Assembly: GCA_013791785.1 (NCBI GenBank)
Contig: VMTD01000052.1
Location: forward strand, 1-36,382
Length of the DNA: 36,382 bases
Reading direction: 5' to 3'
Source: Methanobacteriota archaeon
Lineage (GTDB): Archaea > Thermoplasmatota > Thermoplasmata > SG8-5
In this document: piece after piece, positions 13,901 to 32,983 of the stretch
Layout of the letters: every line of letters begins with the position of its first letter
Position numbering within the stretch: the stretch's first letter is position 1
The notes under the pieces: generated by a model
Database searches by the model: none
What the model saw: the letters and a program-made list of their open reading frames with translations, nothing else
Told to the model about the DNA's origin: nothing
Translations under genes and position numbers: made by a program

Positions 13901-16148
13901 TAGTGGTCAGGTGGGGGGAAATGAGAGGAAGGACATTGAGAACAGATTCAAGAATCCAACGGATTCGCTTAACACCATCATATGTACGCCAACAATGGAA
14001 TTGGGCATCGATATTGGCAACCTGTCTGCTGTGTACATGAGAAATGTTCCACCCAGCCCCAGTAACTACGCACAGCGTTCTGGAAGGGCTGGAAGGAAGG
14101 GGCAGTCATCAATAATATCCACATTCTGTGGCGTTGGGATGAGACGTGGGCCACATGACCAATATTTCTACAAGTATCCAGAGAAGATAATTGCTGGTCA
14201 GATAACACCACCAAGATTTATGATAGATAATCAGAAGCTGGTCAAAACACACCTGCATTCTTTGATACTGGAAGAATCAAATATGAGGCTTCCAAGCAAG
14301 CCTTATGAGATACTGAATCTAGACCATGAGGGCGAGAACTTCCAGATGTATGACAGTTTGAGAGAAGAGATTACAAAACATGTAACAGCATCCAAATCTA
14401 GAATATTGGGTTCAATACATGAGGCGTTCGCATCTGAGATGGAAAAATATCCATCATGGTTTGCGAATTCATTTATCGAAGAAACCATTGATGGGTTTAC
14501 TGATGGAATCGATGACACATTCAATTACTGGCGAAACGAATACAAAAACCTGCTGAGAGAGTTGAAATTGCTCAATATTCAGGGTGAGAAAGAAGGACCT
14601 TTAAAGAAGAATACCAGTAGGAGAATGGCGATAGAGGCAAAGTTAAAGGCTATGCGCGAAGGCGAGAAGGGATTCTCGACTTACAATTATCTAAGAGGCC
14701 AGGGCTTCTTACCGAGCTTTGGGTTCCCCACCTCATTTGCTACGTTATCATTGAGTGATGTCGATGACGAGATAACAAGAGATAAAATAATGGCTCTTTA
14801 TGAATTCGCTCCTGGCAATACATTGTACTTTAAGAATCAAAAATACAGCATTATTAGAGCAAGGCCAAGGACTGAAGAAATGAGGCCTCTGAGGGAGGCC
14901 ATGATTATCTGTCCCACTTGTGATTCAGCATATTTGGGAGAGAGGGCGAAGACCCTTTCGGCCTGTGCAGAATGCGGAAGTACATTTGAGAATATTCATC
15001 CCAACCTCAACACAATGGAAATGCCTGATATGTACGGATCTAAAATTGAGCGTATATCAAGTGATGAGGAGGAAAGAAGGAGGCTGGGCTATAACATCAC
15101 ATCACATTATGAAAGGGGCCCAACCGTAGAAAATTATACAATTACAAGCGGTGAAACCAGTTTTGATATAAGTTATGAACATAATGGAAAAATAATAATC
15201 GTGAACCAGGGGACCAACCGAAGCGAAGATGAGGCTGAGGGCCAAGAGGCTGGGTTCGTATTCTGTAATGCTTGTAATAAGTGGCTATTCGGTGAACGTG
15301 GGAACAAGCACCTGGAAGAGGGCTACGACCAGTGTCCCAGGAATGCCTCGGATGATGATATAATCAAAGGGATTTTCTTGTTTGCCCATGGATTGCATGA
15401 CGTAGTGACCTTAGACATCCCTTATCCAAAGAACCTACCTCCCGAATCCCGAGAAGCCTTCTATTTATCAGTAAAAGGAGCGATTCTCCAGGGGCTCCAG
15501 ATAAGCTTGAACATAGAAGAAAGCGAAGTCAAAGGAATGATAAAGCCAAACCCAGAAAGGGAAGGTGAATACAAGATTCTGATTTATGAGAAAGTTGAAG
15601 GTGGAATTGGGGTTGTCAAGGCCCTCACCGAAGAAGCACGTCTAAAGGATATTCTATTGAGGGCCAGAGAGATACTTCATGAGGGGGAACCAGAGGGGTG
15701 CCAACGAGCCTGTTATGAATGCCTATTGAGTTATTACAATCAAATTGAACACGCTCTATTGGACAGAACTCTGGCACTCGATTTCCTGAAGGATTACATT
15801 GATTTGCGAATACAAAAGGGCATTGAAGAGGATAGATTCCAGGAATTGTATGATAAATGTGATTCTGGTTTCGAGAAAGCCGTGTTGAATAAAATTGTGG
15901 AAATTGGTATCCGCCTACCTGACGATGGCCAGAAGATAATCTATGACTCGGAATCAGTTCCAATTGCTAAACCGGACTTTTTCTATAAGCCAAATATAGC
16001 AATATTCGTGGATGGCCCAGATCATGAGAAGGAGCATGTGAAGAAATCGGACGAAGTGAAGAGAGACAAATTGAGAGCACTGGGATATACTGTTGTTGAA
16101 ATAAAAGATATGAGCCAGGTTGATAATTTAAAGGGATATATCAATTGA
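10956..16148 (+). CDS. DEAD/DEAH helicase with Cys clusters and DUF1998-like C-terminal region (DrmA/DrmB or MrfA-like), with C-terminal Vsr/DUF559-like nuclease
   Basis: STGTGSGKSFCFGIPIV, VLDEVHTYTGQQGAD, QRSGRAGRKGQ, repeated CxxC, CQRACYECLLSYYNQ, terminal PDFFYKPNIAIFVDGPDHE...KRDKLRALGYTVVEIKD. ATGA overlap with the methylase. Confidence 0.85.
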   Translation: MNPFEALENIQEEYKRYVFSFQKFKNPTIKDWVEERVQGGTLLWKEPHIQLNKNFKKGDSLKSLVDSGVLHPGVLKVFRINLDEDGSPPIKPHMHQSEAVKYILEKQKNTIVSTGTGSGKSFCFGIPIVSTCLKMKEEGLKGIKAIIVYPMNALANSQYDDFSRRLHGTGLKISLYTGDTETSPDQALRTYRETTGREEPWDSEVLSREEIQANPPDIIMTNYVMLDLIFSRFDDKNLFPDAHIGNLKFLVLDEVHTYTGQQGADVACLIRRVKQRTGTIGKLTCIGTSATVQAGENEDGAKIVADFATELFGEKFNSEEVVGEMYEESENPPGALFAPVPSITSELLSGYDGSIESATTLLKALANDDSITCSTPIDLGAYLIQTKIFEFILEEINHTSSFKELVIRYQKKLRPEASLQACINEVKALFLIGTLADMEKDDGIQSVIIPKLHTFFSQGRTISSCLTENEPHLNDRGESICPTCINNGRERITFPLNFCRACGQEYYGAALLENGELLPRDIDTEVEEGLDIYIYPNEFKEEDQPYPGDWYKDGGGLKDSYKESVPHNCEYCPECNKFDPSPEECFGHRKIKVSTIASPFQFCPSCGVYFDRRRREFNKLFTFGSVGRSTATDVLLAATLEQLPEDQRKIIAFSDNRQDTALQAAHINNFQKRIHFRRGLFQSLFQNGAKEIADIGSEIYNLYEKENVMPKYSSMDNKYIPDTASERAFRRYLQYNVIVDLRSSQHKNQQNLEDVGLLKVSYGGIDKLAADEGVWSKVPEMSRLSDLGKQDFLSGFFDIFRKQQAIEHESILNFINFETETIDKIDEEAHFHIARFGRAIVGYSESADNKNRRARILRITTARSRLVLWIKKVLGTELDRSKDIALELVDILTRVGYLANHTVKKCGNIHVLKSGTILLEANTDPINKKCRKCGAVYHFKELDLCTESGCTNLIDDDLSNNYFRRLYSKPFIEAVKIEAEEHSGQVGGNERKDIENRFKNPTDSLNTIICTPTMELGIDIGNLSAVYMRNVPPSPSNYAQRSGRAGRKGQSSIISTFCGVGMRRGPHDQYFYKYPEKIIAGQITPPRFMIDNQKLVKTHLHSLILEESNMRLPSKPYEILNLDHEGENFQMYDSLREEITKHVTASKSRILGSIHEAFASEMEKYPSWFANSFIEETIDGFTDGIDDTFNYWRNEYKNLLRELKLLNIQGEKEGPLKKNTSRRMAIEAKLKAMREGEKGFSTYNYLRGQGFLPSFGFPTSFATLSLSDVDDEITRDKIMALYEFAPGNTLYFKNQKYSIIRARPRTEEMRPLREAMIICPTCDSAYLGERAKTLSACAECGSTFENIHPNLNTMEMPDMYGSKIERISSDEEERRRLGYNITSHYERGPTVENYTITSGETSFDISYEHNGKIIIVNQGTNRSEDEAEGQEAGFVFCNACNKWLFGERGNKHLEEGYDQCPRNASDDDIIKGIFLFAHGLHDVVTLDIPYPKNLPPESREAFYLSVKGAILQGLQISLNIEESEVKGMIKPNPEREGEYKILIYEKVEGGIGVVKALTEEARLKDILLRAREILHEGEPEGCQRACYECLLSYYNQIEHALLDRTLALDFLKDYIDLRIQKGIEEDRFQELYDKCDSGFEKAVLNKIVEIGIRLPDDGQKIIYDSESVPIAKPDFFYKPNIAIFVDGPDHEKEHVKKSDEVKRDKLRALGYTVVEIKDMSQVDNLKGYIN

Positions 16149-16334
16149 TTTTATCTTCTAAGTTGTAGTATACCTCTAGATAGCGCCTTTAAATTTCGCA
16201 TAATAGAGATTAGTTTAGTTAATAATGTATGTAGCACCTCTGATAGGCGTCATAGTAGTTTTTAACATGTTGGTTGCTATTTGAATAACGCTTTAAATAT
16301 GGATGAATTATAGTCATCTCCATAAGAGGAAATT

Positions 16335-17636
16335 GTGAAGGATAGAGATAATATGACTAAGAAGATTGGTAGAAACAAGCCATGTCCTTGTGGATCCGGT
16401 AAGAAATATAAAAAATGCTGTTTATTACACGATTTAGATAAGGGTGCAGGAACTACAAAAATAACATTGAAAACAATAATCAACGCTGCTAGCTTGCATA
16501 TTTCTACTTTAGAATCTGCAGGTGATTCTACAAAAAGAGTGGTAATTAAAGGTATAGATATGATGAATGGGATTATTGTAGCCACTATAGGACTATATTC
16601 AAAAGATCCTATGGGAATAAAAATTGAATCAGGCCAAATAATTGCTTACCTTTCTAGTCTTTTTGATGGGGAAGATAAGATAGGGGATTTTGGAATTACA
16701 CACTTTGCAGTGAGGGGTATTGATGACAATAACAATGAAATCATGTATGTGGTTTCTTCGAAAGAATCCGCACGTTTTGCTAGAAATGGACAGTCTGTGG
16801 AATGGTTAATGCATTCACTATTTCAAGACAATACCGATGAAACCAGGTTATCTCAAGCTAAGAATATGATATCGAGAGTAGAGAAAGGATTGCGAAATGT
16901 TATAATCCATGTCCTTCAGAATAGAGAGGGGAACGATTGGTGGAACAGTATACATAATAAAAGTAGAAAAAGTGCAGAGAGTGTTTATTCAAACAAATAT
17001 GGAGTAACGACTTTACCAAATGGGGATGAATTAATTGATTACACCTATCTTCCATCTTTAAAAGTCATAATCTTGGAAAACTGGTCTGATTTTAATCATA
17101 TATTCAGGGATGAAAATGATTTTACATCAGATATGGATAGACTAAATATTATCAGGAGAGAGGAGAGCCATAATAGGATAATCAGCCCACCTCTTATTGT
17201 CGAACTTGGAGAGATATACAAACGATTGCTTGGCTTAATTGAACAGGAAATTCCAGGCACAGTTCCACATTTTTTGATTGAGAATTGGAGAAATGAATTA
17301 GCGAAAATGTTTGACAATCTAACAAATAATATGATTGATATTACTGATGAAGACAGAAAGAAACCAATTGTTATGATGGAAAAATTCCAAATAATTAGAG
17401 ACCTCAATTTTGATTTGAGTATCAAATTAAATGGCGTAGTAGTTCCACCAAGTAAGGAAGAGCTACACACGAATTTATCTGGCATTATTACGAAATCGGT
17501 AGCAGCTTTAGATCGAATGAATGCTGCTTCAAAGATAATAAATGTGAAAGAGGTTGAGGAAGCTACTAAAGAGTATGAGAGATGTATGAACGAATTGAAT
17601 AAATTTAAGGAAGTGTATTTATTATCTGAATTATAA
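16335..17636 (+). CDS. SEC-C motif protein of unknown function
   Basis: N-terminal GRNKPCPCGSGKKYKKCC is a canonical SEC-C zinc motif; rest unrecognised. Confidence 0.8.
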   Translation: MKDRDNMTKKIGRNKPCPCGSGKKYKKCCLLHDLDKGAGTTKITLKTIINAASLHISTLESAGDSTKRVVIKGIDMMNGIIVATIGLYSKDPMGIKIESGQIIAYLSSLFDGEDKIGDFGITHFAVRGIDDNNNEIMYVVSSKESARFARNGQSVEWLMHSLFQDNTDETRLSQAKNMISRVEKGLRNVIIHVLQNREGNDWWNSIHNKSRKSAESVYSNKYGVTTLPNGDELIDYTYLPSLKVIILENWSDFNHIFRDENDFTSDMDRLNIIRREESHNRIISPPLIVELGEIYKRLLGLIEQEIPGTVPHFLIENWRNELAKMFDNLTNNMIDITDEDRKKPIVMMEKFQIIRDLNFDLSIKLNGVVVPPSKEELHTNLSGIITKSVAALDRMNAASKIINVKEVEEATKEYERCMNELNKFKEVYLLSEL

Positions 17637-17705
17637 CTTAGTAGAAGAAGTTCCGCAAGAAACAAATAAATACATTTAATAATATGTGGGGTTGAATGTG
17701 ATTAT

Positions 17706-17849
17706 ATGCCTTCAAAAAACGTAACTTTGAATGTCGATGAGGATTTATACAATAAATATCGAAAGTTCTGCAAGAAGAAGGGTTGGATTATTTCTAGACA
17801 ATTTGAGATTATGATGGAATATCAAATGAAGGAGGAAAAGAATCAGTGA
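17706..17849 (+). CDS. 47-aa ribbon-helix-helix-like protein (MPSKNVTLNVDEDLYNKYRKFCKKKGWIISRQFEIMMEYQMKEEKNQ)
   Basis: Read from the sequence; NVTLNVDEDLYNKYRKFCKKKGWIISRQFE resembles RHH (CopG/MetJ-like); GTGA overlap with the methyltransferase ORF. Confidence 0.6.
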   Translation: MPSKNVTLNVDEDLYNKYRKFCKKKGWIISRQFEIMMEYQMKEEKNQ

Positions 17850-18925
17850 TTGAGATGGAAAATACCCAACATAAATCCACGCCAAATTTCACTGCAATAG
17901 ATTTATTCTGCGGTTGTGGAGGAGTTACACAAGGACTTAAAAGCCATTTTAAAGTCATTGCCGCAGTAGATAACAATCAGTATGCTTCTGCATCATATGT
18001 TACTAATCATCCAGACGTCCACTTCTTTGAAGAAGATATTACTAAATTAGACCCAACGACAATTCTTCAAGTTGTTGGCGATCAAGACATAGATCTTATG
18101 GTAGTCTGTGCCCCCTGCCAACCGTTCAGCAGTCAGAATAATATAAAAAACTCGGATGAGAGAATGGATTTAATACTTCAGGCAAGTCGTTTCGCGGAAA
18201 TTTTGAAACCTAAATTGATTTTTTTTGAAAATGTTAAGGGCATTATTGCATCTAAACATTCCGGCATTATAAAAACACTTAAAATTGATTTGAAAAAGCT
18301 CGGGTATAAATATTGGCTTGGACCTATCAGCGTTGATGCCGCGGATTATGGAGTACCACAACGTCGACAGAGGTGTATAATGATGGTAACAAATGAGAAA
18401 AAGACACTACCTACCTTACCTAATCCAACCTCGCCGAAAGGCCAACGAATTACCGTGAAAGATGCGATAGGTGACTTACCTTCTCTCTCATCTGGAGAAG
18501 TAAGTGAAAATGATCGGCTCCATTTTGCACGAAAACACAAACCCATCGCTCTTAGGCGATTCGCTTACATAAAAAAAGATGGCGGATCGCGGTTTGACCT
18601 GCCTCCTGATTTGGAATTGAATTGTCACAAAGGACATAAAGGTCACCCAGATGTATATGGTCGAATGACTTGGAACGATGTTGCCCCTACTTTGACTACG
18701 GGATGCACGGATGTGACACGAGGCAGATTCCTACATCCACGTGATGATAGAGCAATCACCATTAGGGAGGCTGCAAGACTTCAAACTTTTCCCGATAATC
18801 ACCAATATGAAGGTTGCCCGTCAGAGATAGCACGTCAGATTGGTAATGCAGTACCTGTGGAATTTGTTCGGACTATCGGACATGCAATTGCCGAATCTTT
18901 GAGGGAATCCAGTCGGAGGGATTAG
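17846..18925 (+). CDS. dcm-like: C5-cytosine DNA methyltransferase (Dcm family)
   Basis: DLFCGCGGVTQGL (I), APCQPFSSQN (IV), FFENVKGI (VI), PQRRQRCIM (VIII), EAARLQTFPD...QIGNAVP (IX-X). GTG start, or ATG at 17855. Confidence 0.95.
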   Translation: MIEMENTQHKSTPNFTAIDLFCGCGGVTQGLKSHFKVIAAVDNNQYASASYVTNHPDVHFFEEDITKLDPTTILQVVGDQDIDLMVVCAPCQPFSSQNNIKNSDERMDLILQASRFAEILKPKLIFFENVKGIIASKHSGIIKTLKIDLKKLGYKYWLGPISVDAADYGVPQRRQRCIMMVTNEKKTLPTLPNPTSPKGQRITVKDAIGDLPSLSSGEVSENDRLHFARKHKPIALRRFAYIKKDGGSRFDLPPDLELNCHKGHKGHPDVYGRMTWNDVAPTLTTGCTDVTRGRFLHPRDDRAITIREAARLQTFPDNHQYEGCPSEIARQIGNAVPVEFVRTIGHAIAESLRESSRRD

Positions 18926-21900
18926 ATGGCAAAAATTAGAGTCAGAGCAAGAGCAGTTGATATGCTTGGTCGGCAACAGATTGCAGGAATCCCGACTGCA
19001 TTACACGAAATTTTAAAAAATGCACATGATGCTTATGCTGATTATGCGGAGGTTGACTACTTCCGACAAGACAAATCGCTGCTTATAAGAGATGATGGTA
19101 TAGGAATGACCAAGGATGAGTTCGAACTGAGATGGCTCACAATAGGTACGGAAAGTAAATTGGAATTAAGTGGAATAATTCCACCTTATCGTGACCCGAA
19201 TAAACCTTTGAGATCAATTCTCGGTGAAAAAGGAATAGGCAGACTTTCCATAGCCGCAATCGGAAAACAGGTTTTGGTTTTAACCAGGGCAGAACGGGAT
19301 GGTGTTTTGCATGACATCGTAGCATGCTTCATACATTGGGGGTTGTTTGAAATTCCGGGTCTTGACCTGAGCGAAATCGAAATACCAGTTGAAACATGGT
19401 CGGAAAATGTTTTGCCCAATCGCAAATTTGTCGACAAATTGGTTGAGAGTGTTCGTAAAAATGTAAATAAACTTGGAAATAAATTTCCTGAAACTACACG
19501 TATTTCTATTCTTCATGATTTGGAAAGCTTTAAAATTGCCCCTGATGTTCTTTCAAAACGGTTAGAAGGATTGTCACTTGCAAATGGACGAGGAACCCAT
19601 TTTTTCATCCACCCCGTGGATTCCATCCTTGAAACAGATATAGATGGAGGTGGGGATACCAAATTATTCGCTCCACCATTAAAGAAAAATCTCATTGGGT
19701 TTTGCAACACCATGACACCCGATGCACCAGTTCCCGCCGTGCGAATCACCTTCCGAGACCATCGAATGGATGGTAGCATACACGACTTAGTCGACCCAGA
19801 TATAGAGTTCTTCACACCCGGCGATTTCAAATCAGCAGATCACCAGTTCGATGGGGTATTCAACGAATTCGGACAATTCGATGGTACAATCTCAATTTAC
19901 GGTGGAAAGCCAATAAAATACGTTCTCCCTTGGAACGGAGCGAGAGGGAAGCCAACAAGCTGCGGACCATTTCGGCTGAAAATGGCGTACGTGCAAGGAT
20001 TGCAAAGAGAATCACGCCTCCCACCAGAGATATATGGCCCAATCACAAACAAACTGAACCAAATTGGTGGAGTTTACGTGTACCGCGACGGAATTCGAAT
20101 TCTACCTTATGGTAATTCAGACTATGATTGGCTGGGTGTAGAACGTCGTCGCAACCTGGCAGCAAAGGATTATTTTTTCAGCTATAGACGCATATTCGGG
20201 GTTGTCGAGATAAAAAAAGAGGCGAATCCTGGGCTTATCGAGAAAGCGGGTCGCGAGGGGTTCATGGAAAATGCGGCTTTCCGCCAAGTGCGAGAATTAG
20301 TCCAGAACTTTCTCGTCGAGGTCGTACGCGAATATTTCCGCAAAGGAAGCAACCTTGCAGATGATTTTTGGCGAATAAAAATTGAACTTGATAGACAGGA
20401 CATACTTCTAAAACAACGTGAGAAACGAATATCGAATAAAAAACAAAATTTTGCTTCTGAACTTGGTAATTTTTTCCAGAAAATTGAGAACTCTAAACCT
20501 ACCTACGAAGTTAACAATATCAAGGACAGTATAGAAGCGAAGCTCAAGTCTGTCAGTGCACAGATAGAAAGCAATCCCGAAGAGGCTGGAAGAATACTTT
20601 TGAAAATTGAGGCAACACTTAGGACAGAAATTGCTGACCTTCGCAAACGATACTCCATCACCCGACCACGAGGGATGGGACTTACCAAAAATCAGCAAGA
20701 TAACTGGAATGCTTACATGAAAGAAGCCGAGGAACTCGAAAATAAACATTTCAAAATATTGGAAAAACATCTGCAAAATGAAATAAACAAAGCTTTCGCA
20801 TCATTATCCAGTTACGTTGACAAACGACGGCGTATCGATCAAATGTTACAAGAGATGAAGAAGCAGACTGAAAGCGATGCAAAACGAATGAGAACGGAAA
20901 CAACCGACGAGGTAAAAAGCCTCCAAGACACAGTCCTCGTTGAAATTAAAGAACATATGGAAGCTTTACAAAATACTTTGAAAGAAACACTGATTGAATT
21001 CGAACAAATGGACCTCTCTACATTATCGGATGCCGAACAAGAAAAATACCAAACAGAACTTGCGCGCAAATTGGAATCTTCTTCTACAAAGGAACTTAAA
21101 GGATTGGAAAGCGTCCGTGACCAACTTACCATGCTTAACGAAGCATTGGCAAACGACGAGTCTATCTCGGATGTGACCATCGCTTTAGAAGAAAGAGTAG
21201 ACTCCTTCAAAAATCAAATTGACCAATATGCTGAATTAGCCCAGATTGGCACCGCAGTTGGCATTGTACAACATGAATTCTCAAGCACTGTCAAAATGAT
21301 GCATGACTACATTAAACAATTACGTGCCTGGGCCGTCACAAATCCCCAAATCGATGAAATATATCAAAATATTCGAATCAATTTTGAGCACTTTGATGAA
21401 TATATGAATGTATTCAAACCATTTGACAGACGGCTCCAGCGTAAAAAAATGGACATACCTGGGCAGGAGATTCGTTATTACCTGCAAAGACTATTCGAAG
21501 ACCGATTGGCACGGCACAACATCAAAATCAAAGCCACACGGAAATTTGATAATGCTATAATATGCACATACCCATCGACAATATATCCGTGCTTCGTGAA
21601 CATAGTAGATAACGCCATATATTGGATTACCAAAGACGCAGAGGGAAGACCTCGAATAGGTGATACTAAAAAAGAAATCCGACTTGACGCGGATGACAAC
21701 GGTCTGTTTGTTAGCAATTCTGGACCTGGCATAAAACGAAGAATAGCCGATCGAATTTTCGATTTTGGTTATTCGGAAAAGAAAAATGGCAGGGGAATGG
21801 GCCTGTACATATCACGCGAAATCCTAAGAAGAGAGGGGTTAGATCTCGTTCTGGAAGAAAGTGGCAAGAACGTGAGACCGATATTCAGAATCGTGTTTGG

Positions 21901-21931
21901 ATCAGGGAAACAGGAGGAATCTGATGAGTAG
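18926..21931 (+). CDS. Large GHKL protein: N-terminal MutL/HSP90/MORC-like ATPase, coiled coil, C-terminal histidine-kinase-like domain
   Basis: N-terminus EILKNAHDAYADYAEV, IRDDGIGM, GEKGIGRLS; C-terminus GIVQHEFSSTVKMM (H-box-like), VNIVDNAIYWI (N-box), SNSGPGI (G1), GRGMGLYISREIL (G2). Confidence 0.87.
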   Translation: MAKIRVRARAVDMLGRQQIAGIPTALHEILKNAHDAYADYAEVDYFRQDKSLLIRDDGIGMTKDEFELRWLTIGTESKLELSGIIPPYRDPNKPLRSILGEKGIGRLSIAAIGKQVLVLTRAERDGVLHDIVACFIHWGLFEIPGLDLSEIEIPVETWSENVLPNRKFVDKLVESVRKNVNKLGNKFPETTRISILHDLESFKIAPDVLSKRLEGLSLANGRGTHFFIHPVDSILETDIDGGGDTKLFAPPLKKNLIGFCNTMTPDAPVPAVRITFRDHRMDGSIHDLVDPDIEFFTPGDFKSADHQFDGVFNEFGQFDGTISIYGGKPIKYVLPWNGARGKPTSCGPFRLKMAYVQGLQRESRLPPEIYGPITNKLNQIGGVYVYRDGIRILPYGNSDYDWLGVERRRNLAAKDYFFSYRRIFGVVEIKKEANPGLIEKAGREGFMENAAFRQVRELVQNFLVEVVREYFRKGSNLADDFWRIKIELDRQDILLKQREKRISNKKQNFASELGNFFQKIENSKPTYEVNNIKDSIEAKLKSVSAQIESNPEEAGRILLKIEATLRTEIADLRKRYSITRPRGMGLTKNQQDNWNAYMKEAEELENKHFKILEKHLQNEINKAFASLSSYVDKRRRIDQMLQEMKKQTESDAKRMRTETTDEVKSLQDTVLVEIKEHMEALQNTLKETLIEFEQMDLSTLSDAEQEKYQTELARKLESSSTKELKGLESVRDQLTMLNEALANDESISDVTIALEERVDSFKNQIDQYAELAQIGTAVGIVQHEFSSTVKMMHDYIKQLRAWAVTNPQIDEIYQNIRINFEHFDEYMNVFKPFDRRLQRKKMDIPGQEIRYYLQRLFEDRLARHNIKIKATRKFDNAIICTYPSTIYPCFVNIVDNAIYWITKDAEGRPRIGDTKKEIRLDADDNGLFVSNSGPGIKRRIADRIFDFGYSEKKNGRGMGLYISREILRREGLDLVLEESGKNVRPIFRIVFGSGKQEESDE

Positions 21932-23723
21932 TTTCGATGAAATGTGCAAAGAAGCGGTCGAGCGATTCATACAAACTGTCGCTATCATCGATGATATGGC
22001 AACATACGATAATAATTCACAATCAGATGATGACAAAGATAAAACAAAAACACTAACACCCCCTGCTAATGGTCTCACGACGGACATCCTTGAACAAGAA
22101 TCTCCATCAACTGAAAAAGGACCTGAAGACAATGACGATAATCTCGGTCAGCTTGATGCAAAGGTTGTGATCAATGCTTTTGCGGATATGGGTATCACAT
22201 GTTGTATCCAACGCCCTAAACACGAGGAGTCATCGTGTGAACGAGCAGTAAAATTGGCAACATCCGCTGATATCCTTGTCCTTGATTGGGTTCTCGATAA
22301 AAAAAATATAACGCTTCCTCGCGACATCATTAAACAGGTAATGAAAGAAGATAAGAGCAAAGGTGGTCGAATGCGACTCATAGTTGTGTACACATCCCAT
22401 AACTATGTCGACCAGATGCTCAAGGACTTAAAAGAAGATGCTGACGATGTATACGATGGCATCCTGAGGATGGACAAAAAACAGCTCACTATAGCAAATG
22501 ATTGTCTTCGAATCGTTATTCTCAATAAAGAAAAAACTAAAAACCCACCTGAAGAAGCTCGAATTGTCCCATTCAGCGATTTACCTAATAATATCATTTT
22601 GGAATACGTCGAACTGATGAAAGGCATAATTCCTGGTGTCACATTACACAGTATTGCTGCTATGAGGGAAAAAACTCATGCACTACTCTCGATATTGAAC
22701 AGAAATCTTGACGGAGCCTATTGTCTGCATCGTGCCTTTCTTCTCGAACCTTCAGACAGTGTTGACTTTGCCATGAACCTGATTACAAGTGAAATTGAAA
22801 CAGTTATTCAATCGGATGCAAAAGCACGGCAATTCGTTGATAGAAACGGGATAAAGGAGTGGTTAATACAAAAAGCAGGTGATGAAAAGAAATTTCCGTA
22901 CTGTAACAGTTCACTTTCGGTAAAAACAATTGAAAATTGTATATTAAATGGGCAACTATCCAAAAAAGAGGAGGTAACGAATATTAAAAAAGAATATGCA
23001 ACTAATTGGATTCAAGCTAAGTATGATGCAGGAGAGATTCTGAAAAATGATGAGGATGAAGACATTACTTTAACAGACGCGAAAAAATATATCAAACAAA
23101 ATAAATTGGAACGTATTAAGGGATGCAAACCTCCTGTAGAAACACGTTTTGCTGAAACATTGTATTCTACATCAAAAGAAGCTATCAATGGGTGCAAAGA
23201 ATTATCGCGTTTAAACTGTACAACTCGGGATACTGTAAGTCGCCCATATATTGATGAACAGCATGGCCCGACTATTAAATTAGGTAGCATTCTTAAAGTG
23301 CGAAAAAAAGACCACAATGATTTAGTTGATGATTGGTTCCTTTGTCTTACTCCACTTTGTGACTGCATACGTTTAGAAAAAGAAGAAAAGGTAGAATTTC
23401 TCTTTTTACATCTTTACCCTGGGAAAAAAGATAACGCAGACATTTACGTTGAGACACAAAAAGGGGAAATTGAACCTCTAGTTTTCAGAGGAAAAAATAG
23501 AAAAATAGAACTATTGACAATTCCATTCTTCCCTGATAAGAATGATCGCATTCGCGCTAAATTTTGTAAAAATAAATGGCGAGTCAAATCTAAAAGGAAA
23601 AATTATCAATGGATTGCTGAACTCAGAAATAACAAAGCTCTAGCAATTGCCCATCATGTTGCGGCTAATACATCAAGGGTAGGTATCGATGAATTTGAAT
23701 GGTTCCGTCGCCAAGCACCATAA
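21924..23723 (+). CDS. Receiver (response-regulator)-like domain protein with long unknown C-terminus
   Basis: VAIIDDMA, DILVLDWVLD (candidate phospho-Asp), RLIVVYTS; ATG at 21924 preceded by caggagg; overlaps the GHKL gene by 8 nt. Confidence 0.72.
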   Translation: MSSFDEMCKEAVERFIQTVAIIDDMATYDNNSQSDDDKDKTKTLTPPANGLTTDILEQESPSTEKGPEDNDDNLGQLDAKVVINAFADMGITCCIQRPKHEESSCERAVKLATSADILVLDWVLDKKNITLPRDIIKQVMKEDKSKGGRMRLIVVYTSHNYVDQMLKDLKEDADDVYDGILRMDKKQLTIANDCLRIVILNKEKTKNPPEEARIVPFSDLPNNIILEYVELMKGIIPGVTLHSIAAMREKTHALLSILNRNLDGAYCLHRAFLLEPSDSVDFAMNLITSEIETVIQSDAKARQFVDRNGIKEWLIQKAGDEKKFPYCNSSLSVKTIENCILNGQLSKKEEVTNIKKEYATNWIQAKYDAGEILKNDEDEDITLTDAKKYIKQNKLERIKGCKPPVETRFAETLYSTSKEAINGCKELSRLNCTTRDTVSRPYIDEQHGPTIKLGSILKVRKKDHNDLVDDWFLCLTPLCDCIRLEKEEKVEFLFLHLYPGKKDNADIYVETQKGEIEPLVFRGKNRKIELLTIPFFPDKNDRIRAKFCKNKWRVKSKRKNYQWIAELRNNKALAIAHHVAANTSRVGIDEFEWFRRQAP

Positions 23724-23936: not shown

Positions 23937-25679
23937 CTACTCTTCCGGGGAACTTTGCTCATCACTTTCTTTTTCTGGCGGTTTCTTCATTCGGGAATAT
24001 AGTCCAATACCAATCACTGCAGCAACACCAACCAATATGACAAGCCAGAATAGGGAGGTAGTGAAAATATCATCACTAGAATCATCATCACTATCTAGCA
24101 AGCCGTCCTGAGCAGAATCGGTAGCAGTTGGCGTGGCAGATACTTCATTAGAAAAGGCCCCTTCACCTACGCTGTTTATAGCACGGACTTTGTAGTAATA
24201 TGTTTGGTCATTGGTGACAGAAGTATCTGTGTAAATTAGTACATTCTCCGTGTTTGTAAGGTAAGTTTCTATTCCTGATGAAGCTCCACGATAAATCTTA
24301 TAATTTGTAATAGTTAATCCACCATCGGAGCTTGGAACAGCCCATGTAAGTGTAACCTGTCCATCGCCAGCAGTCGCCTGAAGATTGCCTGGTGCAGAAG
24401 GCGCTGTTGTTCCAGTAATAGGTGTTGCACTAACTGAATTTGATTTTGTCCCCTCTCCCACAGAATTGATAGCACTAACTTTGTAATAGTAAATATGACC
24501 GTTGGTAACTGACAAATCTGTGTAGGTTAACACATTATCTACTGTTGTATGAAGTGTTTCTCCCCCAGTAGTTATGCCACGATATATTTTATAATTCGTT
24601 ATACTAGCACCACCGTCCGATGCAGGGGCTGACCAATCCAAAATAACTTTTCCATCACCAGCTGTTGCTTGAAGATTTAATGGTACACTTGGGGCTGAGA
24701 TGGGGTCTGGCTCATATGGTGTGTAAACTTCATTTTTCGAATATTCATAAAAGGTCGTGTAGGTTTCACTACTATAAGTTGTCGAGGCCCCACCAATTGC
24801 ATAGATTTTTCCTCCCAATTCTACAACACCAAGTTGAGTCCGGGGTGTCGGAAGCGGTGTTCCCTGCGACCATGTGTCTGTATCATAATCATATATCTCA
24901 ACTTTATTTACTACTTGATAATTAACGCCAGTTGGTGAGTTTTGATCCCCGCCAATCGTATATATTGAATTATTAATAACAGCAAGGCCAAAGTACTCTC
25001 TTGGTGTTGGCATTGAGCTTTTTAAATCCCAAGAATTGGTATTTGGATCATAAATCTCAACAATTCCAGTGTTTTCATAAGGATAATTACCAGTAAATCC
25101 TCCGATTGCAATAATTTTATTATCAATCACACCTGAAGATAATCCTCTTCTCTTCGTTGGCATTGGTGATTTTGTACTCCAACTATTTGAACCAGTATCA
25201 TAGACTTCAATCGTATCTAACCAATCCCCCCCTGCTGCTTCGCCACCGATGCAATATATTTTATTATCAATTACTGCCGTAGCAAAAGAATGACGTGGAG
25301 TGGGCATATTAGTTCCATTGCTCCAAATTTCTGTTTCAGGATTATATATTTGTACTAAATTACTATTTATCCCGATACAGTATATTAAATTATTAACTAC
25401 CGCAACACCAGCTCTGTAAAAACCCCCAAGCATATTGCCTTTTAATGTCCATATGTCTAATTCAGGGTCATATTTCTCAATTATTGTAGTATGTGCTCCA
25501 TCTTTTACACCACCCAAAGCGTAAATACCTTCATTAACAACTGCCAGACCCAGACCTCTTCTAGTATATTGCATTGATTGTTTAGTAGTCCAAGAATCCC
25601 CCTGGGCATTTACATTATAAGTTATCAAAGACGTTAGTAGCAGCAAGCTCACAAGGATTATCACGACAACTCTCTTCAT
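23937..25679 (-). CDS. Secreted/membrane-anchored kelch-repeat protein with two FN3 domains
   Basis: N-terminal signal peptide, repeated kelch blades (NKIYCIGG, NSIYTIGG, GKIYAIGG), two FN3 modules (APSAPGNLQATAGDGQVTLTW), C-terminal TM anchor. Confidence 0.9.
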   Translation of the reverse strand: MKRVVVIILVSLLLLTSLITYNVNAQGDSWTTKQSMQYTRRGLGLAVVNEGIYALGGVKDGAHTTIIEKYDPELDIWTLKGNMLGGFYRAGVAVVNNLIYCIGINSNLVQIYNPETEIWSNGTNMPTPRHSFATAVIDNKIYCIGGEAAGGDWLDTIEVYDTGSNSWSTKSPMPTKRRGLSSGVIDNKIIAIGGFTGNYPYENTGIVEIYDPNTNSWDLKSSMPTPREYFGLAVINNSIYTIGGDQNSPTGVNYQVVNKVEIYDYDTDTWSQGTPLPTPRTQLGVVELGGKIYAIGGASTTYSSETYTTFYEYSKNEVYTPYEPDPISAPSVPLNLQATAGDGKVILDWSAPASDGGASITNYKIYRGITTGGETLHTTVDNVLTYTDLSVTNGHIYYYKVSAINSVGEGTKSNSVSATPITGTTAPSAPGNLQATAGDGQVTLTWAVPSSDGGLTITNYKIYRGASSGIETYLTNTENVLIYTDTSVTNDQTYYYKVRAINSVGEGAFSNEVSATPTATDSAQDGLLDSDDDSSDDIFTTSLFWLVILVGVAAVIGIGLYSRMKKPPEKESDEQSSPEE

Positions 25680-26069: not shown

Positions 26070-26260
26070 CGACACTTTGACGTATTAATTATTGGATACT
26101 AAACGTGACGTATAATTTTGCTTGAGCATTTAATTAGGGTCCTGCGTGAATCCAGATGTTATCCCCAATTCTCTCCCTGATTTGTGGGACAAATCGTTTT
26201 GGATATAGTCATTGAAGGTCATGCCTAAGCTTGAGGTGACAAACCTCGGGAGTTGATATA

Positions 26261-26491
26261 ATCACAAAGAAAATAACAGTGAAATTTGTAAGATTGGGCC
26301 TCCTCACATGGAAAGATGTAAGATTACAAAAAGGTGCAACTGTTAGAGATTTAAAAAGGGTATTTAAACTAACACAATACTACAATGTTTATAGATGCAA
26401 GACCGAAATCATGTTAAATTATAACCAAGATATTTTCAAATTACTTGAAGAAGGTGAGTTTTTAGAAATTTCTCCCCCATTTATGCTATAA
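26261..26491 (+). CDS. Stand-alone ubiquitin-like beta-grasp protein (UBL copy 1), start codon uncertain (ATC at 26261 by homology; GTG at 26279 by ORF track)
   Basis: ITKKITVKFVRLGLLTWKDVRLQKGATVRDLKRVFKLTQYYNVYRCKTEIMLNYNQDIFKLLEEGEFLEISPPFML aligns along its length with the N-terminus of the next protein. Confidence 0.6.
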   Translation: MTKKITVKFVRLGLLTWKDVRLQKGATVRDLKRVFKLTQYYNVYRCKTEIMLNYNQDIFKLLEEGEFLEISPPFML

Positions 26492-26590: not shown

Positions 26591-27301
26591 ATGACAAAGA
26601 AAATAACAGCAAAAATACTAGGAACCGGAAGCCCGGTAGTGAAGGACCTAAATATAAAAGAAAAAACAACCCCAGCTGATGTGAAAAGGGTGATTAATGT
26701 CCCCCAGACATATCAGGTTTATAGGGTTTCAACAAAGACCTTTCTGAAGGATGGTCAAGATCTTCACGGGTTGCTAGAAGAACATGAAAAATTGGAGATT
26801 TCTCCCGAGTCAGAGTTGGGCTGGCTGGGGGAGAAAATCTCCTCCCTTTTTTTTTCTGTTGAGGAAGAAAACAAGATAGAAGTTACGAACTCATGGTCCA
26901 TGCCCCCGTTGGAAGTTGGCCCACAGCCTTTCAGTTATGTCCAGCCCCCTCAGGCAATGCCCAGGTTGGAAGTATCAGTTGAGCCTGCAGAATTGATTGG
27001 CGCACAAGCGGAAATGGCAAACATTGAGTGGTTCCCAACTGATGAAGGATATGCTGGATTTTACACAACATGGGCGGGGAGGAAATATCAAGGCAAGATG
27101 AGCAGAAAATGGAGCTTGTTTCCACGATATTACATCAAGGATCCCCCACCAAACATTTTCTCTGGAAGGCATAGTCATTGCTTTTCCATAGCTATCGATG
27201 GGTGGTATCATTGTCATTTCGCAAAAGGTGCTGGAAACAATCCACTCACACTAATTCGCAAAGTCGAAGAGTATCTGAACGATACGGAGGTATGCTCATG
27301 A
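26591..27301 (+). CDS. UBL domain fused to an E2/UBC-like domain
   Basis: MTKKITAKILG...LLEEHEKLEIS beta-grasp-like; C-terminus YYIKDPPPNIFSGRHSHCFSIAIDGWYHCHFAKGAGNNPLTLIRKVEEYL follows UBC motif order (PP, H, G..C, terminal helix). RBS-like aggag upstream of the ATG. Confidence 0.65.
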   Translation: MTKKITAKILGTGSPVVKDLNIKEKTTPADVKRVINVPQTYQVYRVSTKTFLKDGQDLHGLLEEHEKLEISPESELGWLGEKISSLFFSVEEENKIEVTNSWSMPPLEVGPQPFSYVQPPQAMPRLEVSVEPAELIGAQAEMANIEWFPTDEGYAGFYTTWAGRKYQGKMSRKWSLFPRYYIKDPPPNIFSGRHSHCFSIAIDGWYHCHFAKGAGNNPLTLIRKVEEYLNDTEVCS

Positions 27302-27996
27302 AAAAGGAAATCATAGTAGACAAGAAAAAAACCAAAACACTGATTAAAGATTCGAAATCAATACGAAAGGAATTCCTGAGCCTATACACCAAAGCTTGTG
27401 AGGAAGGAAAGGAAGAGGCCGACTTTTTTCACAATGTTTTAAAGCATCTGTATGGAACAGAGCAGCAAATATCCAATATTAGGAAGATGGATGGATTGGA
27501 AGATTCAGAATTTCCTCGATATCTGATGTCATCAAAATTAATCCACGATTTATTCGACTATCTTGTTGAAGATGATGAAATTGAGAAGATGTGCCAATGT
27601 ACTGGGGTTGTGGATGAGAAGACCAATACTATTGTCCCAACAGAAATTCTCAAGCTGGGGATGAGTCAGAGAAGTAGTATTTATGTCAAAGGAGATAGGA
27701 GATCGATAAATAATACTTATTCCCAACTTGATGACTACCTACACTCCATCGTCATTCAGGGACATAGACATCCCGGAAGTGGACCTGGAGCAACACAGCC
27801 ATCAAGCATTGACTTAAGGAACCACAAGGACATGGAGATGTGCTATCCAGTAATTGGAATAATCTTTGTGAAAGGTGGCTATTTCAGATTTTTCAGCTCT
27901 GATGATAAGTTTGAGATAGAGATTTACGGAACGATAAACGGAAAAGAGGTGGTGAAAGTAGATGACAGAACCTACCGTATCCAAGATGTTAATTAG
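27298..27996 (+). CDS. JAB/JAMM (MPN) metalloprotease, deubiquitinase-like
   Basis: GHRHPGSGPGATQPSSIDLRN gives HxHP...SxxD; ATGA overlap with the UBL-E2 gene. Confidence 0.82.
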   Translation: MKKEIIVDKKKTKTLIKDSKSIRKEFLSLYTKACEEGKEEADFFHNVLKHLYGTEQQISNIRKMDGLEDSEFPRYLMSSKLIHDLFDYLVEDDEIEKMCQCTGVVDEKTNTIVPTEILKLGMSQRSSIYVKGDRRSINNTYSQLDDYLHSIVIQGHRHPGSGPGATQPSSIDLRNHKDMEMCYPVIGIIFVKGGYFRFFSSDDKFEIEIYGTINGKEVVKVDDRTYRIQDVN

Positions 27997-28744
27997 GGCT
28001 CCAGGGATGGCCCCCACCGAGATGGGAGAGCAGGATGCTCATGACAGGCATACTTTAATTAATGGATGGAACCAGGATGCTTTGAAGGGTGCTAAGTTAG
28101 TTTTCGTTGGTGTTGGTGGTCTTGGAGGAGAAACCCTTGAAAAGGTGGCCAGACTTGGTGCAAATCATCTTGTATTCTGTGATTTTGATACTATTAATCT
28201 TCATAACATGCATACCCAACCTTTTTATTTAAGCCAGAGGTTCCAAAACAAGGCATTTGGTATGCTTGAAAATCTCAAAAAGGTGTGTACAGCCCCATCG
28301 TTATTAGAAGCATATCCCATGGATTTAGGTAGTATGATAAGAGACTATCCAGACGCCATTAAAGATGCAAACCTAATAGTTTGTCTTGTCGATAACGATG
28401 AAACCAGACGCCAAGCGAGTGAATATGGTTTGGAACACAACATCCCTGTGATATTCGCTGCAGTTTCCAGAACAACACTGAATGGTTATGTATTCATTCA
28501 AAATGGAAGGGCTTGCTTTAACTGCATCAACTCGTTAAAGAAGAACACAAAAGAGGAGTGCCGAGAACCATCTGTGATTTATATCCACACGGCCATTATT
28601 GGCATTGTCACATATGCGGTAGTCTCCCTTCTTATGAACTGGAATATGAGCTGGAATTTCTATGAATTATTCCTTGATAGTGAGTCAAGGGTACTCTTGA
28701 GGGAAAAAAGAGTGGATTGTGAAATCTGTAAGGGGGTGGAATAA
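27962..28744 (+). CDS. E1/ThiF/MoeB-like adenylating enzyme
   Basis: LVFVGVGGLGGETLEKVARLGANHLVFCDFDTINLHNMHTQ; VCLVDNDETRR; Cys pairs CFNC and EECREP. Overlaps the JAB gene. Confidence 0.9.
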   Translation: MTEPTVSKMLIRAPGMAPTEMGEQDAHDRHTLINGWNQDALKGAKLVFVGVGGLGGETLEKVARLGANHLVFCDFDTINLHNMHTQPFYLSQRFQNKAFGMLENLKKVCTAPSLLEAYPMDLGSMIRDYPDAIKDANLIVCLVDNDETRRQASEYGLEHNIPVIFAAVSRTTLNGYVFIQNGRACFNCINSLKKNTKEECREPSVIYIHTAIIGIVTYAVVSLLMNWNMSWNFYELFLDSESRVLLREKRVDCEICKGVE

Positions 28745-28758
28745 TCGAAGAGGAGATA

Positions 28759-28980
28759 ATGGTCGTGGGTCCAGAAGAGAAGCGGAATTGGCTCTATGGC
28801 TTTTGCCATGTAATCTATCGATTCTTCGCTTGGATTGGGGAGGGGATTCTAGCATGCCCGAACAAGGCATTTTACGCCGTTCTTATCATAATGTGCATCC
28901 TTGCCCCAATCATTGCGATAGTCCTCACAATAGGGCTTCTGTGTGGGATTTACAGGAGGGGAAAGCCATGCCACCAGTAA
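28759..28980 (+). CDS. Small membrane protein
   Basis: AFYAVLIIMCILAPIIAIVLTIGLLCGIY hydrophobic segment; in operon position. Confidence 0.6.
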   Translation: MVVGPEEKRNWLYGFCHVIYRFFAWIGEGILACPNKAFYAVLIIMCILAPIIAIVLTIGLLCGIYRRGKPCHQ

Positions 28981-29189
28981 TCCGTCCACAGTCCGACTAT
29001 GATGGCATTGCCTTGATCCTGTCAATTGTATTCTGCTTTGTTCTGGTGTTGATCGGGATTTACTTCGCTGTCGCTGAGGCCTATATCCCGATGATTATCT
29101 GTTTGGTGGCTGGAGCATTCTTTGTCTTCATTGTCTATGGATTGAAAGCTATCGTGGCTTGGTCCAGGCTCCGGAGACCCGAACAATGA
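28968..29189 (+). CDS. Small membrane protein, two predicted TM helices (MPPVIRPQSDYDGIALILSIVFCFVLVLIGIYF...)
   Basis: Internal ATG within the 28719 ORF; two hydrophobic stretches; ATGA junction with the ATPase gene. Confidence 0.6.
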   Translation: MPPVIRPQSDYDGIALILSIVFCFVLVLIGIYFAVAEAYIPMIICLVAGAFFVFIVYGLKAIVAWSRLRRPEQ

Positions 29190-31708
29190 AGTCATTCCAA
29201 AAAACTATTAAGATAGCCAAAATCAGTGAATTCAATCCTGTCATTTTTCTCAGAGGGCTAGTGGGTACTGGGATAGGTTGTAATCTTCACGTTTATACGG
29301 GTTCTCAGTCTTATGTTCATTTGTCCACGGTCGGAACTGGATTTTCAATTGTTAAAGCTCTGAAAAGAGCTGAACTCAATCAGAAAATTCTGGAAAGTTT
29401 GCTATACACAGTAAAATTTGAAGAAGTCGATGAGGAACCCGTTATCAGAGCTGGGAAGTGTTCAACATTATTCGAAATTGTTTCTCCTCAATCAATGGAA
29501 TATCAGGAACAATTTCATTTTCTGTGTTCAAGGCTGTTTAGTGCGGGTGTGCCTTGCCATATGATTGTAAAAGTTTCGCCCGTAGCCATTGGTTATGACT
29601 ATTATGAAGATGATACTCTCGGCATGAAATCCAAATCCCCAATAAGTAGCCAGTTACAAAAATTAGAGATAAAAGAGGAATTGGATCTTTTCATGGATTC
29701 AGCCTTCGAGGTAACCTTTGGTGTATTTATAACTGCAAATTCTGACTATCAATTGAAGAGATGGGCTTCAATTGCCTTGAGTTATTTGACCAGTACTTAC
29801 AATATAAACGGTGTTCACAGTCAGTGTATCCAATATGATGGAAAACGCGCTATTGGTGCTTTTAATAGAGTTATGGCTGGCGGTCATCTTAATTCCTCGG
29901 TGATTACTTCGAAGAACCTTGCAGCTTATTTTCAGATCCCCGCAATTGGACCATTAGAGCCCAGAGTAGAGATTGATTTTCCCACACCAGAACTTGGACA
30001 AAATGGCATTAAGCTTGGCAATGTTTTGGCTCCAGACAATGATGTTATGGGAGATGCTATCTTTGACCCCTGCTCAATTTTTGAGCATATTGCAATCTGG
30101 GGGGCAACTGGCACCGGAAAAAGCACCTTGTTAAAACGTATGATTATTGAGCTTCATAACAATGCTGGGCTCCGGTTAATAATCTTTGATTTACATGATG
30201 AATATCGAGAAATTATCAGTCACCTAAACGGTGAAATTGGCAAGGATATCACAATAATAAACCCAATATTACAAAAATTCTCTGTCAACCCCTTGGAATT
30301 GTTCACTCAAGATGCCGTTTCTCGTGATATTGCGGTTGCCGAGAGGACAGAAAATTTCATATCATTGCTTAAACAGGTCTTCATTCTAGGCGAGATACAG
30401 GAAAGCCGGGTTAGAGCCGGAATTTACAGCCTTTACAATTCTGGAACCCCAACCATTGAAGATCTTGTTAAGGTTCTCTTGTCGCAGAAAATTGATAACT
30501 TGTCAGGAAAGCTGATGAAATTTACGAGGGGGTTCTACGGGAATATATTCAATGTGAAAAGCTCCAGTCTTCCGTTTGATAAGTTGGAAACCACAACCAC
30601 AATCTTTGAATTAGGAAGGTTACCCACGGGAATGAGGTGCTTCTTTGTTTCTGTATTCTTGATACTTTGGTGGGATTACAAGCGCAGGAACCGTCCATCT
30701 GAAGCCACGCCCCATGTCATGGTTTTGGATGAATTTCATCATTATTCTGGGCTTTCGGTCATTAATAAGATGCTCTCTGAGGCCAGAAAATACAAGGAGG
30801 GATTGATATGTAGCCACCAAGGACCCAATCAAGTTACGTCCAATAATGTTCTTGATAACCTTGTTCGAAACACCGCTACGAAGATTATATTTCGTCAAGA
30901 ACAGGCAAGTGATAAGCACACGGTTTCAACTGCATTGGGTGGCCTGAGCAAAGAACAGGCCGCATACCTTTCAGTTATGGACGTGGGGGAGGCCATTGTC
31001 AAGCTCAAAGGTGTGAAAACCGCTTTTAGAATTAGAACAGATGATTTCCAGGCTGGTACACCTATTGATGATGATCAGGTAAGACAAATCGTTCTGAATG
31101 ATCAAATGATTACTTCCATTGAGCAATTATCTGATGATGAAATACGGTTTCTTAAGGCCGTTTATGAGCATCCGAGGTCTCGGGTGGCGGATGTATCAAA
31201 AAATCTCAAGATACGTAATTTGGACGGTTATGCCCTATTTAATGGCTTGAAACAAAGAGGTGCGCTCATCGAAGAAACCGTTAAGCATGGCGTTGGAAGG
31301 CCAAAGAACATACTAAGCCTGTCCGTTCAGGCGCACAGGGTGCTTGATTTAGGCAGAAGGAGCGAATCTGCCCACCATGGAGGAACAGAACACATCGAAA
31401 TGGGCAGAAGCATTGCGGATATACTGGAGGCAGACGGCTGGAATTGCCTGATAGAAGACGGATGTGATGTCAAGGCCGAAAGAGATGGTTTTATCATTGC
31501 TATTGAGGTGGAAACAGGCAAGGCAAAGACCCGGTCTCACCTGATTAAGAACCTTGAGAGAGATAGTTGGGCCGATATCATCATCGTGGTTTGCCCGAAC
31601 AAGGTTGATAAACAGGAGATTGAGAAAATTATTGCCCGGAACAATATTGGGAACGTATTTGTCATAACTTATGGAACAGTCGAGAGCATTATGGATTTAA
31701 TTCCTTAG
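29186..31708 (+). CDS. HerA/VirB4-like (DUF87) ATPase with winged-helix and C-terminal nuclease-like domain
   Basis: IWGATGTGKSTLLKRM (Walker A), HVMVLDEFHHYSG (Walker B), wHTH-like DDEIRFLKAVYEHPRSRVADVSKNL, tail CDVKAERDGFIIAIEVETGKAK. Confidence 0.85.
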   Translation: MKSFQKTIKIAKISEFNPVIFLRGLVGTGIGCNLHVYTGSQSYVHLSTVGTGFSIVKALKRAELNQKILESLLYTVKFEEVDEEPVIRAGKCSTLFEIVSPQSMEYQEQFHFLCSRLFSAGVPCHMIVKVSPVAIGYDYYEDDTLGMKSKSPISSQLQKLEIKEELDLFMDSAFEVTFGVFITANSDYQLKRWASIALSYLTSTYNINGVHSQCIQYDGKRAIGAFNRVMAGGHLNSSVITSKNLAAYFQIPAIGPLEPRVEIDFPTPELGQNGIKLGNVLAPDNDVMGDAIFDPCSIFEHIAIWGATGTGKSTLLKRMIIELHNNAGLRLIIFDLHDEYREIISHLNGEIGKDITIINPILQKFSVNPLELFTQDAVSRDIAVAERTENFISLLKQVFILGEIQESRVRAGIYSLYNSGTPTIEDLVKVLLSQKIDNLSGKLMKFTRGFYGNIFNVKSSSLPFDKLETTTTIFELGRLPTGMRCFFVSVFLILWWDYKRRNRPSEATPHVMVLDEFHHYSGLSVINKMLSEARKYKEGLICSHQGPNQVTSNNVLDNLVRNTATKIIFRQEQASDKHTVSTALGGLSKEQAAYLSVMDVGEAIVKLKGVKTAFRIRTDDFQAGTPIDDDQVRQIVLNDQMITSIEQLSDDEIRFLKAVYEHPRSRVADVSKNLKIRNLDGYALFNGLKQRGALIEETVKHGVGRPKNILSLSVQAHRVLDLGRRSESAHHGGTEHIEMGRSIADILEADGWNCLIEDGCDVKAERDGFIIAIEVETGKAKTRSHLIKNLERDSWADIIIVVCPNKVDKQEIEKIIARNNIGNVFVITYGTVESIMDLIP

Positions 31709-32483: not shown

Positions 32484-32553
32484 TTTTTACTGTCGATGCC
32501 GATTCATCTCAGCCCCTCAGGGCTGGGCTTTCACGGCATTTGTACAGTAAAAA
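32484..32553. terminator. 70-nt nested hairpin TTTTTACTGT..TGCCG..CAGCCC-ctca-GGGCTG..CGGCA..ACAGTAAAAA
   Basis: Three collinear complementary arm pairs; overlaps the 3' end of the 32531-32983 gene. Confidence 0.6.
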
Positions 32554-32983
32554 GCACATCACAATTGGGACACTTGCCAAATCTCTCTCCACACGTTACA
32601 TGATAGTCCCTACCGCAGGAACATTTGATCATATCCATGTTCATCCTGATTGTGCCCATACAACTTTTACACTTTGTGTCTGTTAAAGCTTTCATTTTCT
32701 CGAATGATACTGTGTCGGGTGCCTTGGTGGCAATGATCTCTGAGTTGAGTGAATTTAAATGTTCTATCCCCAATTCGGTGATATATGCCATGAACTGGTC
32801 TGGACCCATCCATTCGATTTCAACAAAAACCTTCTTCTCCAGGGACTCGATAGCATTCTTCAAATCCTGATATTTCAAGCCAGGAATGGTATTATAAAAT
32901 ATCTCCCTCGTGACACCCCGATAATCCCACTTGAACAGGATGTGAAGAATAGCTTCCTCGAAATTCCCGCGTTCACCTTCCAT
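32531..32983 (-). CDS. Winged-helix-like protein with C-terminal RING/treble-clef-like zinc domain
   Basis: CKSCMGTIRMNMDMIKCSCGRDYHVTCGERFGKCPNC: CxxC-x12-CxC-x4-HxxC-x6-CxxC. Confidence 0.75.
   Translation of the reverse strand: MEGERGNFEEAILHILFKWDYRGVTREIFYNTIPGLKYQDLKNAIESLEKKVFVEIEWMGPDQFMAYITELGIEHLNSLNSEIIATKAPDTVSFEKMKALTDTKCKSCMGTIRMNMDMIKCSCGRDYHVTCGERFGKCPNCDVLFTVQMP

Follow-up and report, generated by a model that had tools for sequence, protein, structure and literature searches.

The window, i.e., the whole stretch of 36,382 nucleotides that was analysed, contains an operon on the forward strand in which the first gene encodes a UBL–E2-like fusion protein and is followed by genes encoding a JAB peptidase, a ThiF-type E1, two small membrane proteins, and a HerA-like ATPase. 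The initial annotation had described the first gene as encoding a UBL and an E2-like domain in a single polypeptide next to an E1, and the locus agrees with this: 26591–27301 (+) is a single unbroken frame of 236 amino acids, in which the E2-like part is probable on basis of operon context and homologs, and a ThiF-type gene is found nearby. The following genes were assigned:

26255–26491, + strand, second UBL-like frame upstream of the operon, 45% identical and in the same frame as the fusion gene; ORF start uncertain (GTG at 26279)
26591–27301, + strand, UBL–E2-like fusion protein, 236 amino acids (ORF, relatives, and AlphaFold)
27298–27996, + strand, JAB/JAMM peptidase with E96, H156, H158, S169, and D172 invariant; start overlaps the fusion stop
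27962–28744, + strand, ThiF/MoeB-type E1, start at 27962 or 27989 (Pfam ThiF, E = 8.6e-29)
28759–28980, + strand, small membrane protein 1
28968–29189, + strand, small membrane protein 2
29186–31708, + strand, HerA/VirB4-like ATPase (library scans, HerA-type domains); start overlaps the stop of small membrane protein 2

Gene content and surroundings of the operon

All six genes of the operon are open, and each of them overlaps or adjoins the next. The stop codon of the fusion gene and the start codon of the JAB gene share the sequence ATGA at 27298, and translation of the two genes is coupled; the E1 gene overlaps or abuts the JAB gene, and the ATPase start falls within the stop of small membrane protein 2. 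Relatives match the fusion ORF at E values of 1e-28 to 1e-35, which places its conservation far above chance, and the library scans that recognised ThiF in the E1 and HerA-type domains in the ATPase gave no match for the fusion protein. The upstream UBL-like copy lacks the Gly tail and has ISPPFML as its C-terminus.

The JAB protein contains the metal site E...HxH...SxxD, and its match to Pfam Prok-JAB is weak (E = 0.0093, in three of seven members). The E1 is made up of one ThiF domain, about 250 amino acids in length, without a separate catalytic Cys domain, and its best PDB match is MoeB. Its glycine loop, K88, D135, the Zn-type Cys pairs 176/179 and 244/247, and C191 are all invariant, and C191 occupies the position of the functional Cys in ThiF and MoeB. 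In the NxxR motif the window protein has Thr where the relatives have Arg, which this genome's other copy, encoded on contig C42, also keeps, and the window E1 may therefore be weakened.

At a distance of a few kilobases from the operon is a defence island (4111–18925) that encodes a DrmD-like helicase, a DrmMI-like methylase, a DruE-like SNF2 protein, and a C5 cytosine methylase, and of which the matches are mixed DISARM/Druantia. Beside the island, 18926–23723 encodes a pair consisting of a GHKL ATPase (HEF_HK) and a response-receiver protein (Response_reg_2), and 23937–25679 (−) encodes a predicted secreted, membrane-anchored protein with Kelch-like repeats and fibronectin type III-like domains, as judged by eye. 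On the other side of the operon, 32531–32983 (−) encodes a winged helix and a Prok-RING_1-like finger (E = 3.9e-5, below the cut-off). This RING-like protein was considered as the E3 of the system and rejected: its finger and winged helix are widespread across Thermoplasmata, and the finger often occurs in frames of about 1500 codons; since both are present in genomes without the UBL operon, the protein is not specific to the system.

Predicted structure and conserved residues of the fusion protein

The fusion protein was divided into two domains and a linker on the basis of alignment and structure prediction, and the following features were placed in it:

26591–26821, + strand, UBL domain, residues 1–77, C-terminus ELG77 (AlphaFold2 with Foldseek, and alignment)
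26819–26821, + strand, Gly77, the UBL C-terminal Gly; predicted JAB cleavage site, and the point at which the gene is split in relatives
26822–27001, + strand, linker, about residues 78–137, disordered and Pro-containing
27002–27298, + strand, E2-like domain, about residues 138–236 (alignment and domain model)
27179–27181, + strand, Cys197 (GRHSHC), invariant; probable active-site Cys
27212–27214, + strand, Cys208 (GWYHC), earlier candidate; not conserved
27215–27217, + strand, His209, invariant, 12 residues after Cys197

The N-terminal half is a UBL with a beta-grasp fold, as judged by structure prediction and fold search. The AlphaFold model, based on five sequences, has a pLDDT of about 80 for residues 1–72 and displays the beta-grasp order of elements, and Foldseek ranks the Caldiarchaeum ubiquitin 6fno first (E = 5.5e-4), with numerous ubiquitins and SUMOs after it. 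A UBL profile also matched SAMP2 weakly (E = 0.025). The C-terminal Gly of the UBL is kept in the fused copies and in most of the separate relatives. The Pro-rich linker that had been described is likewise recovered, as residues 74–136 are disordered (pLDDT below 50) and 8 Pro were counted in 65 residues; the start of the linker resembles the N terminus of stand-alone E2-like proteins.

In the C-terminal half, the elements PPPNIF, H, DGWYHC, and PLTLIRKVEEYL, from which the initial annotation had read a UBC order, are all present, but the likely active site lies one motif earlier than was proposed. Alignment with six relatives revealed that W147, a Gly, C197, H209, and a Pro are invariant, C197 and H209 thus being found in all seven E2-like sequences, whereas at the Cys of GWYHC five relatives have Val and the remaining one, the distant G040 sequence, has Ile. 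Conservation among homologs, by which the initial annotation had proposed to judge its candidate, therefore rules out C208 as the active Cys, and the neighbouring C197 is the probable active-site residue instead.

In a separate model of the E2-like domain (mean pLDDT 74, pTM 0.68), a first helix and three strands precede a PP loop, after which two more strands and a second helix follow, an order that is compatible with a UBC fold. Structure prediction and fold search, by which a UBC fold was to be recognised, did not confirm one: comparison of the model with PDB folds gave no significant match, and FANCL (E = 3.5) is the sole protein among the best 50 matches that we recognise as belonging to the UBC/RWD proteins. 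The C-terminal half had no match in Pfam, NCBIfam, PADLOC or the PDB, and sequence searches of the PDB with the E2-like and JAB profiles returned chance matches only. Homology with Prok-E2_E and Prok-E2_B was considered and dropped, as PF14461 and PF14462 had no hit above the cut-off in the genome and hhalign against a Prok-E2_E alignment gave a probability of 0.3%, both profiles being shallow. Because the domain model has no significant PDB match, we infer the E2 assignment from the operon context, the invariant Cys with an invariant downstream His, and the UBC-like order of elements, rather than from a demonstrated fold.

Fused and split operons in Thermoplasmata

Six genomes proved to contain true relatives when 100 relatives and 400 members of the class were searched, i.e., the genome under study, G009, G035, G060, G162, and G040. 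No further relative was detected in a 393-genome sample of the phylum, and phages and plasmids contained no relative; the weak, short matches in G080, G155, G276, and G177 were put down to chance, that in G080 after inspection. The genome under study carries two operons of this type, and the order UBL, E2-like, JAB, E1 is common to the six operons other than that in the window. This genome's second operon (L009, 7329–12306) is complete and has the same order; it also encodes a membrane protein, as well as a HerA-like ATPase that is 22% identical to the one in the window. Fused copies are found in three operons (window, contig C42, and G009), and UBL and E2-like protein are encoded by two adjacent genes in G035, G060, G162, and G040. 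In the JAB tree the fused operons group together in one clade (98/100), which suggests that the fusion may have a single origin and have been kept; the trees of E1 and E2 do not separate one fusion event from several.

Some further characteristics of these loci were recorded. The JAB proteins of the split operons at L028, L029, and L030 have N-terminal transmembrane-like stretches, in place of which the fused operons encode small membrane proteins as separate genes; L028–L030 derive from MAGs labelled Methanomassiliicoccales, Thermoplasmata, and 'Euryarchaeota', all of the same class as the window genome, which falls in Thermoplasmata. The G009 locus (L010, 1–1482) misses the JAB C terminus and the E1 N terminus at a junction, by deletion or by an assembly fault. 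The G040 operon is flanked by an AAA+ gene and by a gene, directly after the E1 (L026, 452–1249), that encodes a LIM-like zinc domain and a DA1-like metallopeptidase (PF12315, E = 0.0017).

In the split loci the genes part right after the Gly tail of the UBL, and the start of the E2-like protein follows at once; in G060 the two frames are separated by no more than a TGA and one codon. The separate UBL proteins end in KFGA, KFGR, or RSGGGFP, one to three residues past the Gly, and additional UBLs at contig ends in G009 end in RVGQAQ and are followed by sequence resembling the linker of the C42 fusion. Every Gly-tailed stand-alone UBL of the family thus has residues beyond the Gly, so that processing by JAB seems to be how the family normally begins. 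The UBL Gly is kept at the joint in all three fusions. The C42 joint reads LGG-MREAI (Gly-Gly-Met), in which the start Met of the E2-like protein seems to survive, and the window joint consists of a single Gly followed by a bulky Trp (G77-W78). The genome under study (93% complete) encodes two fusions and one Gly-less copy of the family and no other Gly-ended UBL, which makes cleavage the evident way to a usable UBL.

Proposed function and comparison with known systems

With a probability that we put at about one half, the fusion is a linear precursor that belongs to an archaeal pathway of UBL conjugation and would be separated by cleavage. The JAB of the operon would cut after Gly77, yielding the E2-like protein and a UBL whose C-terminal Gly is free, after which the ThiF-type E1 would adenylate the released UBL. 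The UBL would then pass to C197 of the E2-like protein, directly or via C191 of the E1 and with the assistance of H209, and C197 would hand it to targets, which may lie close to the membrane and to the HerA-like ATPase. The cleavage, the thioester on C197, the targets, and any role in defence are elements that we infer; judged by its neighbourhood a defence role is plausible, and the proximity of the defence island makes an antiviral role worth considering. Cleavage of this type has an archaeal precedent in CsRpn11, which trims its UBL precursor exactly after Gly-Gly and also acts on UBLs in linear fusions (PMC6043591). In CsUb, cleavage is blocked by some bulky residues close to the site, while another Trp substitution speeds it (PMC6043591), and because of the former the G77-W78 joint counts against the precursor, as do the unconfirmed UBC fold, the absence of sequence similarity between the E2-like part and any E2, the E1 without a separate catalytic Cys domain, and the Thr in the NxxR motif of the window E1.

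The initial annotation had proposed a permanent tether, in which the UBL is never released and serves as a docking or regulatory domain in cis or as a scaffold. The retention of three fused copies, the single clade of their JAB proteins, and the existence of polyUbl–E2-like fusions in bacterial 6e operons speak for it; nevertheless, we consider it unlikely, and less likely than the precursor. An uncut fusion could not be activated by E1 at the C-terminal Gly, and the genome would then lack an activatable UBL of the family and yet keep E1 and JAB; moreover, the UBL Gly stands at the joint in all fusions, in one as Gly-Gly-Met. The four sister operons that encode the halves separately, split at the UBL Gly, make a precursor probable, and the translational coupling of JAB to the fusion and the lack of another Gly-ended UBL point the same way. 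Another reading, which is rather improbable, takes the C-terminal domain for a different Cys-containing partner, such as a target protein or one that transfers sulfur, and the UBL for a SAMP/MoaD-type sulfur carrier. The E1 is of ThiF/MoeB size with MoeB as best match, the UBL profile resembles SAMP2 weakly, and E2 similarity is lacking in sequence and in significant fold matches, but the order UBL/X/JAB/E1 fits known conjugation operons, and the order of elements, the PP loop, and the invariant Cys with downstream His resemble the 6d E2. Furthermore, no cofactor-biosynthesis genes were recognised nearby, and G040 has the AAA+ and DA1-like peptidase genes beside its operon. Finally, the Gly-less upstream copy, the Thr in the E1 motif, and the truncated G009 genes could reflect a decaying locus of which the window copy is losing function; with six open genes that overlap or adjoin each other and with C197, H209, and the JAMM residues intact, this is the least probable explanation.

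As for the proposed precursor, its components resemble several known systems. Iyer et al. (2006) described 6d operons encoding UBL, JAB, E1, and E2, in which the E2-like protein has a Cys followed by a conserved His, and 6e polyUbl operons, in some of which the polyUbl is joined to an E2-like domain that lacks the Cys (PMC1779556). The window operon shares with 6d and Bil (BilABCD) systems the conserved C-terminal UBL Gly, the grouping of JAB, E1-like, and E2-like genes, the E2-like Cys followed by His (as in BilB), and a JAB expected to trim the UBL (PMC1779556; PMC11354881). It differs in that BilB has a CEHH motif whereas the window protein conserves only the Cys and one downstream His, in that BilD is a two-part E1 with a Cys domain (PMC11354881), and in that its UBL and E2-like domain are fused and the latter does not match Prok-E2 models. 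With the 6e type (multiubiquitin with Prok-E2_E) it has in common that the UBL is N-terminal to the E2-like domain and joined to it right after its last Gly, and on Rhizobium and Roseovarius plasmids an E2-like match was found inside the multiubiquitin gene, directly after the last UBL Gly (with a consensus-like query of 72 amino acids). However, 6e proteins have several UBL repeats, a Cys-less E2-like domain, and often a JAB–E1 fusion, whereas the window protein keeps its Cys, and the E2-like domains show no profile relation (hhalign 0.3%, from shallow profiles). Caldiarchaeum subterraneum (CsUb/CsRpn11) provides the best structural match of the UBL and the JAMM peptidase that acts on precursors and linear fusions (PMC6043591), but its UBL is separate, its E2 is a recognisable UBC, and its system includes a RING E3. 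The SAMP/MoaD–MoeB/ThiF systems share the E1 type and the weak UBL similarity, and lack an E2-like protein. The view that UBL and E2 are usually separate thus stands in general, but fusions are known from bacterial polyUbl operons (PMC1779556). Since these and the plasmid matches show that the fusion architecture is not new, the novelty lies in an archaeal variant with a UBL–E2-like fusion.

More speculatively, the locus could represent an undescribed Thermoplasmata family of E2-like proteins without detectable sequence relation to Prok-E2, acting in a UBL pathway that is linked to membrane proteins and to a DNA-translocating ATPase of the HerA-like type, with modifier and E2 made as a processed polyprotein like the ubiquitin–ribosomal protein fusions; we regard this as possible rather than probable. 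The locus would add a UBL–E2–JAB–E1 conjugation operon to Thermoplasmata, identified in only 6 of 400 genomes of the class, together with an E2-like family that is missed by current models, and a 1:1 UBL–E2 precursor would be a simple route to the co-production of a modifier and its enzyme.
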